From IMG/VR virus record IMGVR_UViG_3300025869_000087, positions 1-25,558 of that record: a stretch of 25,558 nucleotides of DNA; one strand, 5' to 3'. The stretch's first letter is position 1, and each line of letters opens with the position of its first letter. Below the pieces are notes generated by a model. It was not told the origin of the DNA. It made no database searches and saw only the letters and a program-made list of their open reading frames with translations. Below are positions 1 through 21,976 of this stretch, piece by piece. A program made the translations under genes and the position numbers. The DNA is from a virus.

Positions 1-2224
1 TGAATGATGTAGCTTCTCTGAACACACCAATGTCAGGCTGCTTTGCATAGGTTACATCTAGTGCATTGTTAGTAGCATCAGCTACCAGTTCATTGAATGA
101 CCTAGCACCTTTAGGTCGTACCGTAGTTGAATCATTTAACAAGTCTTTAATCTTGCCCTCATTCAACGTGTCAATTAAATCAATCTTATACTCACGCTTA
201 ACTAGGCGTTCTAGTTCACCAAGGAATGCACCCCTGCGTACAAGGTATTCTTGCCAGCGGTTAGCACTGTTGAGTACACTGACACCATCCTCTAGTTCGG
301 ACAACACAGTATCTACACCCTTGCCTATCTTAGTAGTTGCCTGTCCACGCCCTGTTGCTTGCTGAAGTTCATTAAGCTGATTGAACATAAGGTCAAACTG
401 CTTGGATAGTTCAGGTCTGTCTAAGATAAAGTCAACATACTCCTTAGTATCTAATCTGCTTTCAGGCCCAAACATATACTTCATGTTGGCAAAGCTATCC
501 TTCCAGTTTTCTTTACTGATAAGAGACTTAGCACCAGCAGCAGCCTTACCACCTACGCCCTTTGCTTCACCCATGTTATACAAGGCAGTGTCCATTACGT
601 TACCTAGCGAATCCATAGGTGAACGAATGCCAGCAGACTGTAGGTTACGTGCAGCAGTAGCAAGCTGAGACACTAGACCACCACGGCGTATACCTTCTAA
701 GCGCATAATGTTATTACGTATGTTACTCTGACGTGCCTGTGTAGCTGCACGTTGTAAGTCTTGCATCTCATTGAGTGGCCTCGCACGTTTAATCTGAGAC
801 AGCTTGTTGAGTACCTTACCTGCCTCTGAGCCAGAGCCTACAACAGTAAGGATGTAGTCCTCAAAGGATACATTGTACTTGTTTAGTGTGTCGATGAGTT
901 CATCACCAGCTATTAATTCTTTATTGATGGTCAGGTCAAGTAAGTTATCAATTACAGTCTTATCATTATCAAACGCTGTAGGATACTTAGTCTTTAGGTC
1001 TGCTGCTGCAGCAACTAGACCATCTAGCTTCTCTGGCTTGAGTATAGGTGCAGTAAGTGTATCGCCAAGACCAGCCAGTTTAGCTGCATCATCAGCCTCT
1101 ACATCACTAATACCTAATGCTTTAGCAGTTTCACTTCTAGTATCTTTGAAGTCTATCTCTTCAGCAGTTTCTCTACCTGCCTTACGTGCTAGTTCATCAT
1201 CGACTACACGCACACCGTCTACTACAGTTGATATAGTCTTACCTGTCTGCTCCTCAAAGCCTAAGATAAGTTCATTCTTTAAGTCTACATTCTCTGCAGC
1301 TACCTGTTCAGCCCTTGTTGTCTTAGCTGCTATCTCTTCTGCTGTAGCTTCCTTGGCCTTGTTGATATTCATCTTACGGTCAAGTAGTTCAGCACGGGCT
1401 TTCTCACCTCTTTTTTGTAGCTTAGCTGTTTGTTTAGCTTCTCTAAATAGCTTTCTTACAGGACGCATAGCCGCTGAAGCACCCGGAACCATATTCTCCA
1501 TCATCTCCAACATCATACCCATATCACCAGCAAACTTCTCACCGCCTACTCTGTCCTCAAAGGGTATGTCAACTCCAACAGCTTTTAATCCTTTAGTTAA
1601 GGCTACTCCAACATTGGCGGTGGTATCAGACACAGCTTCCATAGCTACAGCTAAATTTCTAATGTCTTTACCTGCTGCTTTACCAATCCATTCTACAATA
1701 GGCTGGAAGGGTTCTGCTATAGATTCCTCTATAAAGTCTTCTGGTATCACACTGCCAAGATTACTAAACTCCTCTGCTTTTTTTGCAGTGCTGGCATAGT
1801 TAAACGCAGAGTCAGTTTGTTCTGACACTGTTGGTGTAGGCTCATCAATGGGTTCTAGCTTTATTCTATCAACTTCTGCGTCACCTGTAGGCACAGAAGG
1901 TACATACCTGTACCCTTCAGGCACTTCACCTGTACGCACGAATGTTTCTTCTGGTGTTTCTGGTTTTTCTATAGGTGATGTTTCAACCTGTTCGATACCA
2001 TCTTCTTCTTCAAGCGCATCTAACTTACTAGCAAAGCTACTAGCTTGCTCAGTATCTTCCTCTACTAAAACAGCCTCTTCTTCTTCATCCTCTCGTTCAA
2101 GAGAATCAAGTTTACTGGCTATGTCATTAGTTGTTTCTACATCCGCTTCATCTTCTAAAGAAACAAATTCTTCGTCTTCGTTCTCTAGTTCATCAAGTTT
2201 CTGCAAGAGACTGTTAGCTTGCAT
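1..2224 (-). CDS. Large virion-associated protein, partial (C-terminus beyond the window)
   Basis: An open frame starts at the ATG at 2224-2222 and runs off the left edge without a stop, giving 741 visible codons. The start overlaps the preceding stop as TAATG. Residues 1-87 are very acidic and hold three copies of a 29-residue unit with K-L-D-x-L-E cores beginning at K9, K38 and K67. A proline-rich linker follows, then a long Ala/Lys/Glu-rich helical part with coiled-coil character around residues 240-350. Near residues 480-520 there is a basic stretch containing RRGGLVSQLATAARN, a type of segment I associate with large virion proteins of marine phages. No enzyme motif is visible. Its place as the last visible gene of the tail block, after other large helical proteins, suggests an internal or ejected virion protein. 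That role is inference from context. Confidence 0.75.
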   Translation of the reverse strand, partial: MQANSLLQKLDELENEDEEFVSLEDEADVETTNDIASKLDSLEREDEEEEAVLVEEDTEQASSFASKLDALEEEDGIEQVETSPIEKPETPEETFVRTGEVPEGYRYVPSVPTGDAEVDRIKLEPIDEPTPTVSEQTDSAFNYASTAKKAEEFSNLGSVIPEDFIEESIAEPFQPIVEWIGKAAGKDIRNLAVAMEAVSDTTANVGVALTKGLKAVGVDIPFEDRVGGEKFAGDMGMMLEMMENMVPGASAAMRPVRKLFREAKQTAKLQKRGEKARAELLDRKMNINKAKEATAEEIAAKTTRAEQVAAENVDLKNELILGFEEQTGKTISTVVDGVRVVDDELARKAGRETAEEIDFKDTRSETAKALGISDVEADDAAKLAGLGDTLTAPILKPEKLDGLVAAAADLKTKYPTAFDNDKTVIDNLLDLTINKELIAGDELIDTLNKYNVSFEDYILTVVGSGSEAGKVLNKLSQIKRARPLNEMQDLQRAATQARQSNIRNNIMRLEGIRRGGLVSQLATAARNLQSAGIRSPMDSLGNVMDTALYNMGEAKGVGGKAAAGAKSLISKENWKDSFANMKYMFGPESRLDTKEYVDFILDRPELSKQFDLMFNQLNELQQATGRGQATTKIGKGVDTVLSELEDGVSVLNSANRWQEYLVRRGAFLGELERLVKREYKIDLIDTLNEGKIKDLLNDSTTVRPKGARSFNELVADATNNALDVTYAKQPDIGVFREATSF
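1964..2224 (-). repeat. Three 29-residue acidic repeats at a protein N-terminus
   Basis: Three in-frame 87-bp units encode L-x-K-L-D-E/S/A-L-E followed by a run of Glu and Asp. The conserved Lys falls at residues 9, 38 and 67, exactly 29 apart. The linkers between cores differ in sequence, so only the K-L-D-x-L-E core is well kept. Confidence 0.7.
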
Positions 2225-17270: not shown

Positions 17271-18347
17271 CTATGCTAAATGGTAAATGGCGTTGACAAG
17301 AGCTTCAGGACGAAGAATCTTGCGGCCGTACAAATGCATACCCCGAACAATGTCGGCGAAGCTGTCTGGATCACGGTAAGTTTCAGTCTTATTGATCTGC
17401 TCTGCAGTAGCAACAGCAGATGAATGTCCTGCAACAATCACACCATAGCTGGATGAACTGTTTGTGCCAGCGAATGACGGGCCAGTACCAACTGAAGGTA
17501 GGTTGTTTGACTGATAGACTTTGAAGCCGTGGATTTGTGTGGACACTTGACCGTTTTGCAGTCCTGAACCACCAAAATCTGCATTGAACAAACGAGAATC
17601 TTCGTCTTTCAATACTTCCATGAACACTGGATCAAGGATCAACCAACGACCTTGTGAGTCCACGTTCTGCTGGTCAAGAAGACGAGCCATACGTGCAATC
17701 AAAGTCAGTGGGTGAGTGTCACCAGCAGCAGGAGTTGCGTCAGTTGCGCCACCAGTACGAGGCTGGATAGCAATAGCGTCACCTGCAGAGCCTGCAGAAC
17801 CTGCACCATCAGTAAAGTCTGATGCGTCCAGTTTCATGCTTGCAAGCAATTCGTCTGTACCAGCAGTTGCAACAGCAACGGAACCATTTACGGTTGTGTT
17901 AGCTGTATTGGCTGCACCATGCAGAGCAGATTGCTTAAAGCCTGACATATAACCAAGAACGTCTTGGTCAAATTGGTCAGCAAGGCGATACGCAGCACGG
18001 TCACTTGCCAGAGACTGGAAGTTTACGTGTGAGTGTGCCTCTTCAATGTCATCAACCTTAAATGCAAAGTAGTTAGCTTTGTCAATTGTCAGGCTGAAGT
18101 CTTCGTCATCAAGGTCTTGCGGCGTGATGGTTGTACCACGGGCGTAAGCCTTAACTGTAATTTCGGGTTCCTTGATAATCTTAACGGAATCACCCATTGC
18201 AGCAATCTCACCGAAGTAATCGGAATTAGTGATTGCCTCAGCAACAGCAGACTTGCGGAAAGCAAGTTGCACCTGTTTGCTGTAAATTACGGGAGAAAAA
18301 TTACCGTTAGGAAGATTACCATAACCACTAGCAGTAGTAAATGCCAT
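17271..18347 (-). CDS. Major capsid protein
   Basis: The 358-residue protein has the composition and order of an HK97-fold coat protein: an N-terminal arm (YSKQVQLAFRKSAVAEAIT), an EPEITVKAYARGTTIT strand region, a spine-like helix with DRAAYRLADQFDQDVL, a variable middle (residues about 130-190), then RWLILDPVFMEVLKD and a C-terminal ILRPEALVNAIYHLA. It sits after the scaffold gene and before the small head protein. AGGAGA (18355-18360) lies 7 nt before the ATG. It has its own promoter and a leader of about 195 nt, as expected for the most abundant virion protein. The middle region is Ala/Gly-rich and may be an inserted loop. The exact coat subfamily cannot be named from sequence reading alone. 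Confidence 0.88.
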   Translation of the reverse strand: MAFTTASGYGNLPNGNFSPVIYSKQVQLAFRKSAVAEAITNSDYFGEIAAMGDSVKIIKEPEITVKAYARGTTITPQDLDDEDFSLTIDKANYFAFKVDDIEEAHSHVNFQSLASDRAAYRLADQFDQDVLGYMSGFKQSALHGAANTANTTVNGSVAVATAGTDELLASMKLDASDFTDGAGSAGSAGDAIAIQPRTGGATDATPAAGDTHPLTLIARMARLLDQQNVDSQGRWLILDPVFMEVLKDEDSRLFNADFGGSGLQNGQVSTQIHGFKVYQSNNLPSVGTGPSFAGTNSSSSYGVIVAGHSSAVATAEQINKTETYRDPDSFADIVRGMHLYGRKILRPEALVNAIYHLA

Positions 18348-18354
18348 GTTAAAA

Positions 18355-18360
18355 TCTCCT
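18355..18360 (-). promoter_or_regulatory. Strong Shine-Dalgarno of the coat gene
   Basis: AGGAGA is 7 nt upstream of the coat ATG, an optimal site at the end of the leader. Confidence 0.8.
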
Positions 18361-18440
18361 ATGTAGCATTTTACAGATACAAACTCGCAAGACTAATTAG
18401 GAGGCTGCTTCACTTGGGTGCGTGTTATAACAAGGTGGCC

Positions 18441-18459
18441 GCCCTGTTATTCAACGGGC
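18441..18459 (-). promoter_or_regulatory. Second stem-loop in the coat-gene leader
   Basis: In the transcript GCCCGTT pairs with AACAGGGC around a GAAT loop, with a single bulged A. The stem is short and stable, about 95 nt before the coat start. Its role is unknown. Confidence 0.5.
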
Positions 18460-18504
18460 CATGTTCGTCAGGTAATCCGTAAGACTTGGCTGTTTGCAAA
18501 ATTC

Positions 18505-18536
18505 GGTATACCTACATTGCGCTTAGTAGATATACC
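18505..18536 (-). promoter_or_regulatory. Stem-loop near the 5' end of the coat transcript
   Basis: The transcribed strand has GGTATATCTAC, a 10-nt loop, then GTAGGTATACC. All 11 positions pair, one as U-G in RNA that would be a mismatch on the other DNA strand. It begins about 6 nt from the predicted +1 of the promoter at 18549-18576. Such 5'-end stems are known to protect mRNA from decay. A read-through or pausing role is also possible. Confidence 0.6.
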
Positions 18537-18548
18537 TATATGACTATA

Positions 18549-18576
18549 GTTATACTTAAAAATAACTACTTGTCAA
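18549..18576 (-). promoter_or_regulatory. Sigma70-type promoter for the coat gene
   Basis: TTGACA (18576-18571) and TATAAC (18554-18549) are separated by 16 nt, directed towards the coat gene. The -35 box starts 7 nt after the scaffold stop codon, in a gene-free stretch. A host-type promoter here implies that host RNA polymerase reads the late head genes. No phage-type single-subunit promoter was recognised. Confidence 0.72.
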
Positions 18577-19463: not shown

Positions 19464-19538
19464 GTTGGGGCCGCTGTAGCCACACTGTCGGGTGTGGGGA
19501 GTGAGTAGCCAACTAATTGTAAGATTTAAGCCTCTTAC
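19464..19538 (-). promoter_or_regulatory. Hairpins in the gap before the scaffold gene
   Basis: Two stems are visible. GTAAGA / TCTTAC (19538-19519) encloses the stop codon of the Hint-domain gene. CCACAC / GTGTGG (19497-19480) is enclosed by a GTTGG / CCAAC outer pair (19513-19464). Neither is followed by a U run. They may be processing sites or translational controls for the scaffold. Pairing is by eye. Confidence 0.45.
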
Positions 19539-19915
19539 GCAGCTTCTTGACGTACTTCCTTATATCTACCGTGTACTGTGTAGATATTGTTTTCTGTGTG
19601 TACATCAAAGCTTTCACCATCAATAACGATAGATACTGTTGGTGTTAACTGTTCTACATACTCAAGTGATAATACAGGAATACCATTAATGCTATCGCCG
19701 ACTACCAAGTCTTCTGGACGTGTCCATGTGCCATTTGCTAGTACAGGGTGGTCATTACTAATCTTGAGTTCATTATTGATTGCGTAATAACCGCTACGCA
19801 TATGCTTGTGTAGAACTTCCTTGACCCTGTAGTTATCAATCATGTCACCAACTTTGATATTAGTAACAAAATCAATTACGCCGTTAAGTTTAATCTTCAT
19901 GTCTTCGGTTAGACA
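19535..19915 (-). other. Hint (hedgehog/intein) domain
   Basis: Residues 688-813: Cys688 is the potential N-terminal nucleophile, His743 is in the block B-like NDHP, TWTRPEDLVVGDSI is the later conserved strand, and ENNIYTVHG is the final block. The usual C-terminal His-Asn pair is replaced by His-Gly, followed by RYKEVRQEAA. By family knowledge this fits N-terminal cleavage without full splicing. Confidence 0.85.
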
Positions 19916-21976
19916 GTCCGTGCCGCCGCCGTAGCCGCCCCCTTGATTACCACTAGATGTACTAGCGTCTCCATCATTACCTGCATCATCTCTATCGCCA
20001 TCTGGGCCGAAAGCTGACCCAAGATCAAAACCTGCGTCATTATAGCTTCCATCCTTTTGCACTCCTCCGGGTCTACTTTCATAACCCCTATCGGCTCTTG
20101 CCGCATCAACTGCTGCTTGTGATGCGCCTCCTGATACTTTACCGCTTGGGTCACTGGCTAAACCTCTTTCTGCCAGCATACCACTTTCACGCATTTCTTC
20201 TTCTAAAGTTGTTCTACGAGCTTGTTCTTCTGCTTCATTTAATGGCCCTAAATGATCTGTATAACCTAAAATATCTGCAAAATTATTGTACTTGCTTTTA
20301 GCAGCATCTGATAAATTAGAATAAGACTCTGCTCCTAGTTTACCGCCTCGCCAACCTGATTTGTTACCAGCAGAAAGAGCCTCTTTAAAATCAGAAAAAG
20401 AAGAATAATTAAAAGTACCTGATTCATTTTTACTTTGATCGCCTGTTCTTGGGTCTACGGCAATACCATTTTTATCAAAAAACCCGCCAGAGTTAGGGTC
20501 TAAGTCACCCTTTTGAAAACCTACATATGCACTAATTACAACACCTAAAGATTTCTCAAGTTCACTACGAGATTGCAAAGCAGTTGCTAATGTGCCTTCC
20601 TTTGTTGGCTCTGTTCCAAAAATATTTAAAGCTGTATCAGGCAATAAATTTTTAATAAAAGTACCTCCCGGAAGTACATTCAATAAATCAAATCCACGAT
20701 TACCTGTTATTGCATACCTGTCTTTAGCTGACGTTACTCCCGTTTTAATTTCTTCAGGAGAGTAACCAGCAATCTTTTCTCCTGTAATTAAAGAAGTGCC
20801 GCCTCCATAATCAGGACCATCTCCTTCTTCACTTTCAAAATCAGTTGGTCCAACCGTACTTTTAGGCGAAGTAGTCTGTATAGCATTATTTTGTTGTAAT
20901 GTATATCCTTCAGGAATAGGATAAAGAGGCTGACCATTCTTAAAAGGTATTCGTAGAGTTTGTCCTGAACTATTTACATAAGTTCTAAACTCATCATACT
21001 GACCGGGATTGTTTCCTACAGTCTGACCAAAGGTAGGTATATTAGTTGTTTGAGTTGCTCCTATAAATTGAGTACCCGGAAGCTGCGACCCTTGAAATTG
21101 TGGACCTTGTTGTACAGGTTGCGTAGCATAGTCTGGTATTGTTGGTGCTACATATGGTCTAAATCCTGTAGTTGGTCCGGGGTTAGGTGTTGTAGTAAAG
21201 TTAGTACCCGGCATTTGAACTACACCACCGTATGCAAACTCTTGAGGAGTATTATACTCGCCTTCATCTTCCATGTCAAGGTCTTCTATAGAAAAAGGTA
21301 TATCATCAGGAAGAGTAGCTTCTTCACTATTACCCATCTGCCCCATAGCTTCCATACGTGCAAGTCCCGCTTTAGCTTCTTGGCGCATCTCCATAAGTTT
21401 TTCTAATCCAATAAAACGTACTACGTCTGCAGGAAAAACAAATTCACCCTCACTTAGTTGTGCAGGAATGTCATCACGAACTTCTTCTTGAGTGGAACCG
21501 GGCGGTACATCATTACCAGATACAGGGTCAACAGTGCCACCCTCATCCATAAGACCACCTTCTTCAAACATATCCATTTGTTTAGCCATGCTATTCATTG
21601 GTACTGCTCCACCTTTTGCAAATTCTTTAGCCGCCGATGCGGATTCTCTAACTTCTGCTTCTTCAAGAGCCGCCGCTGCGGATTCTGCAGATATAGGCTT
21701 CATATCTTCGTGAATTTTAATATCAAATTTTCTAAGTTCAGCATGAGTTTTTGCCGTAGGCCATTTTTTGCCACTAGCTTTAGCTTTTTTGGCGGCTTCT
21801 TCTTCAGACAACATTTTTCCATTCCAGATAGAAGGTATTAAAGTTGGTACTCTTTTGCCTGTTTTATCTGGTAAATCAACCTGTCTAGTAGACACGGTGG
21901 ATAAAGAACCGTCTTTATTTTTTTTAGCATTTCCAGTTGCTATATTACGATAATGATGTTTAGTAATTTCATCCAT
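19535..21976 (-). CDS. Virion-type protein with C-terminal intein-like Hint domain (813 aa)
   Basis: The 813-residue protein has an N-terminal block (residues about 1-95) with PTLIPSIWNGKMLSEEEAA and SGKKWPTAKTH, then a segment QLSEGEFVFPADVVRFIGL (near residue 180); both are signatures I associate with phage virion proteins. Several GG motifs follow (EFAKGGAVPM, FEEGGLMDEGG, FAYGGVVQMPG). The middle is Pro/Gly/Gln-rich, and a Gly/Asp/Asn-rich linker ends GGGYGGGTD. From C688 there is a Hint domain with CLTEDMKI, NDHPVLA (H743), WTRPEDLVVGDSI and ENNIYTVHG. Unlike a standard intein it does not end in His-Asn followed by an extein, and only ten residues follow. It lies between portal and scaffold, overlapping the upstream small gene by 8 nt. 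Self-cleavage is inferred. Confidence 0.82.
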   Translation of the reverse strand: MDEITKHHYRNIATGNAKKNKDGSLSTVSTRQVDLPDKTGKRVPTLIPSIWNGKMLSEEEAAKKAKASGKKWPTAKTHAELRKFDIKIHEDMKPISAESAAAALEEAEVRESASAAKEFAKGGAVPMNSMAKQMDMFEEGGLMDEGGTVDPVSGNDVPPGSTQEEVRDDIPAQLSEGEFVFPADVVRFIGLEKLMEMRQEAKAGLARMEAMGQMGNSEEATLPDDIPFSIEDLDMEDEGEYNTPQEFAYGGVVQMPGTNFTTTPNPGPTTGFRPYVAPTIPDYATQPVQQGPQFQGSQLPGTQFIGATQTTNIPTFGQTVGNNPGQYDEFRTYVNSSGQTLRIPFKNGQPLYPIPEGYTLQQNNAIQTTSPKSTVGPTDFESEEGDGPDYGGGTSLITGEKIAGYSPEEIKTGVTSAKDRYAITGNRGFDLLNVLPGGTFIKNLLPDTALNIFGTEPTKEGTLATALQSRSELEKSLGVVISAYVGFQKGDLDPNSGGFFDKNGIAVDPRTGDQSKNESGTFNYSSFSDFKEALSAGNKSGWRGGKLGAESYSNLSDAAKSKYNNFADILGYTDHLGPLNEAEEQARRTTLEEEMRESGMLAERGLASDPSGKVSGGASQAAVDAARADRGYESRPGGVQKDGSYNDAGFDLGSAFGPDGDRDDAGNDGDASTSSGNQGGGYGGGTDCLTEDMKIKLNGVIDFVTNIKVGDMIDNYRVKEVLHKHMRSGYYAINNELKISNDHPVLANGTWTRPEDLVVGDSINGIPVLSLEYVEQLTPTVSIVIDGESFDVHTENNIYTVHGRYKEVRQEAA

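Follow-up and report, generated by a model that had tools for sequence, protein, structure and literature searches.

Gene content of the window and its phage group

The window analysed here is a virus fragment of 25,558 bases from IMG/VR, and sequence comparison identifies it as a fragment of an HMO-2011-type phage, a group with a dominant and broad distribution in the ocean (PMC9038755). Its coat protein shares 79% identity with that of Roseobacter phage CRP-345 and 78% with that of Puniceispirillum phage HMO-2011, its terminase and portal have PHROG matches, and its minus-strand genes run in the order terminase, portal, large ORF, scaffold-position ORF, and coat, as they do in HMO-2011. A sequence-only reading of this DNA had labeled the ORF before the coat gene as the scaffold; the position agrees with that label, but the PHROG matches of this ORF, all to families of unknown function, do not provide the function, and we therefore name it by position. 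An ORF of 813 aa (window 19535-21976, minus strand) had no PHROG match, and its C-terminus (CLTEDMKIKLNGVIDFVTNIKVGDMI ... VHTENNIYTVHGR) resembles a Hint (intein/hedgehog) domain. A coat-alignment scan of genome contigs for host or prophage copies yielded no clear prophage and returned viral contigs binned in metagenome assemblies together with distant coat relatives. The features of the locus are collected in Table 1.

Table 1. Features between the scaffold-position ORF and the coat gene of the window (RNA elements are written 5' to 3' on the minus strand)
Feature	Position	Strand	Basis
Scaffold-position ORF	19450-18584	-	named by position
-35 box TTGACA	18571..18576	-	sequence; same box across 80/80 parsed leaders
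-10 box TATAAC	18549..18554	-	16 nt after -35 box
Predicted transcription start	about 18541-18544	-	from spacing
P1 hairpin, 11 bp including one U-G	18505..18536	-	compensatory changes
P2 closing helix, GCAAAC (18497-18492) with GUUUGU (18384-18379)	18379..18497	-	consensus fold, clade A and C leaders
Leader core: P3, P4, P6, P5, P7 and two CC / (N)NAC internal loops	18397..18482	-	covariance model, pair counts
P3, GGA (18478-18476) with UCC (18402-18400)	18400..18478	-	covariance model, pair counts
Internal loop UUAC / CC, adjoining P3	18475-18472 / 18404-18403	-	
P4, CUG (18471-18469) with CAG (18407-18405)	18405..18471	-	pair counts
P6, UGG (18461-18459) with CCA (18417-18415)	18415..18461	-	covariance model, pair counts
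Internal loop CC / CAC, beyond P6	18458-18457 / 18420-18418	-	
P5, CGU (18456-18454) with ACG (18423-18421)	18421..18456	-	pair counts
P7 hairpin, 9 bp, loop CGGCCA (18441-18436) with self-complementary GGCC	18427..18450	-	relatives' loops, pair counts
Anti-SD strand CUCCUA	18398..18403	-	overlaps P3 3' strand (UCC 18402-18400)
Coat Shine-Dalgarno (SD) AGGAGA (18360-18355); UAGGAG (18361-18356) complementary to 18403-18398	18355..18361	-	
Coat (major capsid) gene, HMO-2011/P22-coat type	17271..18347	-	ORF listing, protein and PHROG matches

A conserved host-type promoter precedes the coat gene

The -35 box begins 7 nt past the stop codon of the scaffold-position ORF, so that the TTGACA and TATAAC boxes, which the sequence-only reading had described as facing the coat gene at 16-nt spacing just after the scaffold stop, lie where that reading put them. 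We fetched 80 close relatives by their coat protein and parsed 80 leaders, 79 from relatives and one from the window. The promoter occupied the same position in all of them, with a spacer of 16 nt in 79 and 17 nt in one. For perfect matches to TTGACA-16..18-TATAA[C/T], the expectation is 0.05 per window. Three were observed, all on the coding strand, of which the match at 18576 alone was followed to a constant position in relatives. Because of this low expectation and the shared place in relatives, the coat promoter is not a chance match. The other two (TTGACA-17-TATAAT at window 21279-21251 and 14461-14433, minus strand) are located inside ORFs and are possible internal late promoters.

In a larger set of leaders, the motif was found before the coat gene in 72/72 of the window type, 112/114 of the CRP-9 type, 18/18 of the CRP-1 type, 12/13 of the CRP-345 type, and 52/78 from freshwater phages. 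CRP-2-type leaders have TAAAAC in place of the -10 box, and CRP-3-type leaders showed no match to the coat promoter motif. The hexamers are near the sigma-70 consensus, stand 16-18 nt apart, and are fixed in place, and the proposal that the coat gene has a host-type promoter of its own extends to the whole of the window's clade and most of the wider group. Since HMO-2011 has no annotated RNA polymerase gene, use of the host RNA polymerase, also proposed earlier, would be the natural reading. In HMO-2011 (L082), a perfect TTGACA-17-TATAAT with an SD close behind stands just before gp42 (31754, minus strand), and the coat gene is therefore not the sole late gene with a host-type promoter.

The leader RNA is a nested fold that begins with P1

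P1 is formed by GGTATATCTAC (18536-18526) and GTAGGTATACC (18515-18505), which make 11 pairs and enclose a loop, UAAGCGCAAU, that includes GCGC. Its U-G pair would be A-C on the opposite strand, in agreement with the earlier view of a stem functional on this strand only. Among 15 distinct leaders of the window's clade, two-sided changes were seen at 8 of 12 pairs, and 92.8% of the cells were paired, compared with 79.5% after shuffling and 20-57% with slid partners. Such compensatory changes mark P1 as a genuine RNA helix, and about 5 nt separate it from the predicted 5' end of the transcript, in line with the closeness that the sequence-only reading had supposed; boxes and stem alike are thus conserved in relatives.

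Comparison with relatives further indicates that P1 is the first element of a structured leader RNA of about 200 nt, present in a single copy and ending at the coat SD. Read against the relatives, the nested fold that follows consists of P2, P3, the UUAC/CC loop, P4, P6, the CC/CAC loop, P5, and P7. The pairs of P4, for example, are CUG/CAG, CUA/UAG, CAG/CUG, and others in different relatives. The rod P3-P4-P6-P5-P7 contains a single type of asymmetric internal loop, CC facing (N)NAC, twice and in opposite orientations; this module is probably a protein-binding or tertiary-contact motif. The folding energy of the leader is by itself unremarkable; in the window, the sense strand folds slightly better than its shuffles (z of -1.95) and the antisense strand does not (+0.21).

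To test the fold independently, we built a covariance model (R1) solely from 15 leaders of the distant CRP-9 type. R1 matched the window once, at 18482-18397 on the minus strand (43.5 bits, E=3.8e-11), and HMO-2011 once, at 37521-37436 and likewise on the minus strand (E=2.4e-9), both directly before the coat gene. In an alignment of 62 distinct R1 matches, which, having been fitted to R1, favors it, 24 of 26 core pairs had two-sided changes, 88.6% of the core cells were paired (69.1% shuffled, 34-41% slid), and double-change cells numbered 260 vs 83. A structure-free alignment of 15 sequences gave 90.0% paired cells against 77.6% shuffled and 34-42% slid, and motif-anchored counts over 181 leaders returned the same helices.

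These counts bear on two other accounts of the locus. The sequence-only reading was right about the stem but missed the core (18482-18397), which is far more conserved than the stem. Its simple 5' hairpin stabilising the coat mRNA fits the conservation of P1 and its place near the predicted 5' end, yet it does not account for why the core is so much more strongly conserved, why the internal loops are invariant, or why the P7 loop, described below, is palindromic, and we regard it as highly unlikely. Because the core is so much more conserved, and because the leader also has a loop that probably pairs with itself and a strand complementary to the SD, a stable 5' hairpin is at best part of its role. 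The palindromes could also form a DNA-level operator bound by a dimeric regulator, and the P7 stem and loop sometimes make one continuous palindrome (AGTAGGCCTACT in L107). However, the stem sequences vary freely with compensation, G-U pairs occur on one strand only, and the bulges and asymmetric internal loops are invariant, which makes an operator scarcely credible.

Three further candidates were rejected. A small ORF in the window leader, ATGGCCCGTTGA (M-A-R-stop), is absent from other subgroups; an attenuator would need a terminator-like site, and none was found on the minus strand between the promoter and the coat gene; and an intramolecular pseudoknot between the GGCC of the P7 loop and that of P6 is not a general rule, because GCGC, GUAC, GAUC, and CUAG loops occur while the P6 strand stays (A/G)GCC.

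The leader RNA is retained in relatives and linked to the coat gene

R1 matches recurred at the same place in relatives, with a single copy in every complete genome matched. R1 misses subgroup B of the window's clade and several freshwater, CRP-3-type, and rhizobial leaders, in which the same or a related architecture can be recognized by eye. By these comparisons, the leader RNA is retained by evolution in hundreds of relatives. The divergent leaders of subgroup B (L019, L024, L027, and similar) have the same promoter, an almost invariant GAATGGTCCTTATAAAGTAAAATGACTAAA block, and P7-like UAGCUA/UCGCUA loops, whereas those of rhizobial phages (L472-L489, L091, L092) show by eye a short nested fold, P3 - CUAC/CC - P4 - P6 - CC/NUAC - P5, without a palindromic P7 loop. 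In three marine coat relatives (L492, L499, L505), with about 55% identity to the Rhizobium phage coat, the leader has TTAGCCGATGACGAGTAAA as a conserved block upstream of the coat SD, which sets these leaders apart from the other subgroups. In another phage (L086, ctYwJ313), an HNH endonuclease gene (1315-1884) lies inside the leader region between promoter/P1 and core, and L393 has similar sequence at the place of the insertion; it seems that the leader serves as the site of a mobile gene.

Because the relatives had been sampled through their coat protein, we scanned a viral collection with the RNA pattern alone, which removes that bias. Among at least 80 distinct places listed, a coat start followed 61-140 nt downstream of the RNA in 79 of the 79 that were testable; at the 80th, the sequence ends 32 nt past the RNA. 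The spacer is too short to hold the leader RNA in some coat relatives, namely those in SAR11 phages HTVC033P and HTVC115P and in Vibrio phage CHOED, so a coat gene can function without it.

The position of the leader, just 3' of a host-type promoter and at the head of a same-strand gene block of about 20 kb in HMO-2011, would also suit a nascent-RNA antiterminator that binds the host RNA polymerase and permits read-through of the long late operon. HK022 put, a cis-acting RNA with stem-loops, acts in this way without a phage protein (PMC9378689). Antitermination by put goes through the zinc-binding domain of RNA polymerase beta-prime. However, put is about 70 nt long, consists of two stem-loops, and occurs in two early copies, at both early promoters (PMC9378689), while the leader is single-copy, nested rather than tandem, and found only at the coat gene, and the other strong promoters of these phages have no copy of it. 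We thus consider antitermination distinctly unlikely.

A search of Rfam 15 with the window and 20 divergent loci gave no family above the gathering threshold. The GOLLD, ROOL, and OLE profiles, which are included in Rfam (PMC12286853), had no match in this search, and a relaxed search with the leader only gave chance-level matches (best E 0.68). The paper on the HMO-2011 group makes no mention of promoters or noncoding RNA, and in the literature searched we found no matching coat-gene leader RNA in phages and no regulatory RNA for HMO-2011-type phages. Judged by its sequence features, the coat leader probably represents a new family of cis-regulatory leaders that are structured and likely pair with themselves.

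A usually self-complementary P7 loop whose palindrome switches identity

A self-complementary tetranucleotide was present in the P7 loop of 122/167 non-redundant single-hairpin leaders. Counted as distinct loops, 37/61 had a 4-nt palindrome, where within-loop shuffling predicts 16.7 +/- 3.2, and none of 5000 shuffles exceeded 29, a comparison that treats related sequences as independent. As a control, P1 loops from three further subgroups were treated in the same way and had no palindrome excess (6/42, 5/23, and 5/17). The tetranucleotide switches among GGCC, GCGC, GUAC, GAUC, UGCA, CUAG, and AGCU. In OLE and GOLLD, whose multimers have been visualised by cryo-EM, palindrome switching in one loop is taken as evidence for intermolecular kissing (PMC12286853). 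Because the palindromes switch identity, we infer that P7 pairs with itself: the simplest reading, and a well-supported one at the sequence level, is that two leader RNAs would kiss through this loop, which has the symmetric, self-covarying palindrome of a homo-multimer-like kissing loop. Self-pairing would not be universal, because GGCA and GGCG, the main non-palindromic P7 loops, occur in about 28/167 leaders and the rhizobial members are non-palindromic as well.

Part of the P3 strand is complementary to the coat SD

P3 has a nearly invariant 3' strand (GCCUCU), which is complementary to the SD; in the window the two complements make 6 bp and share UCC 18402-18400 with P3. The predicted pairing between SD and P3 strand was 0.92 in CRP-2-type, 0.73 in CRP-9-type, 0.65 in freshwater, and 0.12 in window-clade leaders. 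In CRP-2-type leaders it covaries, including the matched indels CUUUA/UAAGG, CUUUCA/UGAAAGG, and CUUUCAA/UUGAAAGG. Against a shuffled segment, anti-SD pairing was good in most groups, but a stricter partner-swap test removed the window's clade: own duplexes won in CRP-2-type (0 of 5000, P<0.0002) and freshwater leaders (P 0.007), the result was marginal for the CRP-9 type (0.08), and own partners were not better than swapped ones in the window's clade (P 0.37). A switch in which the P3 strand masks the SD is therefore supported by sequence in part of the family and is only possible in the window itself.

The same results weigh on the idea that the leader works as a functional RNA in its own right, such as an oligomer of the kind of GOLLD/ROOL or the phi29 packaging RNA, which is processed off the coat promoter transcript and linked to the coat gene for co-expression only. 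Its elaborate conserved fold and single copy would suit this idea, as would the self-complementary apical loop, which recalls OLE and GOLLD. However, it always lies 61-140 nt before a coat start (79/79 among the matches listed), an SD follows directly with no terminator-like site on the leader strand, and the SD complementarity of the 3' strand covaries in two subgroups; we judge an independent RNA unlikely.

Proposed role of the leader RNA

Taking these results together, we favor, as a fairly probable reading, a sigma-70-type promoter that gives rise to a coat mRNA with a structured 5' leader of about 200 nt, which would combine cis-acting control of the coat gene with self-pairing. The sequence comparisons demonstrate the conservation of the promoter, the fold by covariation, the single copy, and the strict coat linkage; the SD switch and its trigger are hypotheses, less well supported than self-pairing of the loop. 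In the proposed mechanism, the host RNA polymerase would initiate at the coat promoter and produce a leader in which the P1 hairpin is followed by the rod with its two inverted internal-loop modules, ending at the SD. Because the strand that completes P3 is also SD-complementary, the SD would be free when the core is folded and masked when it is not. Kissing between the P7 loops of two transcripts may then favor the folded state as coat mRNA accumulates; alternatively, a protein bound to the internal-loop modules may stabilise the folded rod, so that the P3 strand stays away from the SD. That the coat mRNA dimerises through its leader, senses its own abundance (or a module-bound coat- or scaffold-type protein), and only then releases the SD is conceivable, though we are doubtful of it.

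If true, the dosage of capsid protein in one of the most abundant marine phage groups would be controlled by a new class of RNA. The deep conservation of a single-copy RNA at this gene, in phages that range from marine roseophages to those of rhizobia in soil, suggests that capsid expression includes an essential step, and with palindromes that switch, homo-dimerisation of such an mRNA leader is open to direct testing.

Comparison with known systems

The coat leader resembles translational-control leaders and riboswitch-type 5' UTRs in having a structured leader that extends to the SD and a strand that, as proposed here, could either complete the core or mask the SD. It differs from riboswitch-type 5' UTRs in having two inverted internal-loop modules, a self-complementary apical loop, and a phage coat gene downstream, with no Rfam match. 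Like HK022 put, it would be a cis-acting RNA just downstream of a phage host-type promoter, but it is one rod without put's tandem stem-loops. With the HIV-1 dimerization initiation site (DIS) it shares a palindromic apical loop in a structured 5' leader, through which two transcripts kiss in HIV-1 and may do so here; the DIS, however, is a packaging signal of a retroviral genome without homology to the coat leader, and a DNA phage is not expected to package RNA. The likeness to OLE, GOLLD, and ROOL lies in the apical-loop palindrome, which switches among GGCC, GAUC, and AGCU across relatives and is read there as a kissing bridge (PMC12286853). Those are large stand-alone RNAs of several hundred nt, often near tRNA islands, whereas the coat leader is about 200 nt long and part of an mRNA. 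A leader dimer would be a further natural RNA multimer beyond those of retroviruses, phi29, and OLE/GOLLD/ROOL.
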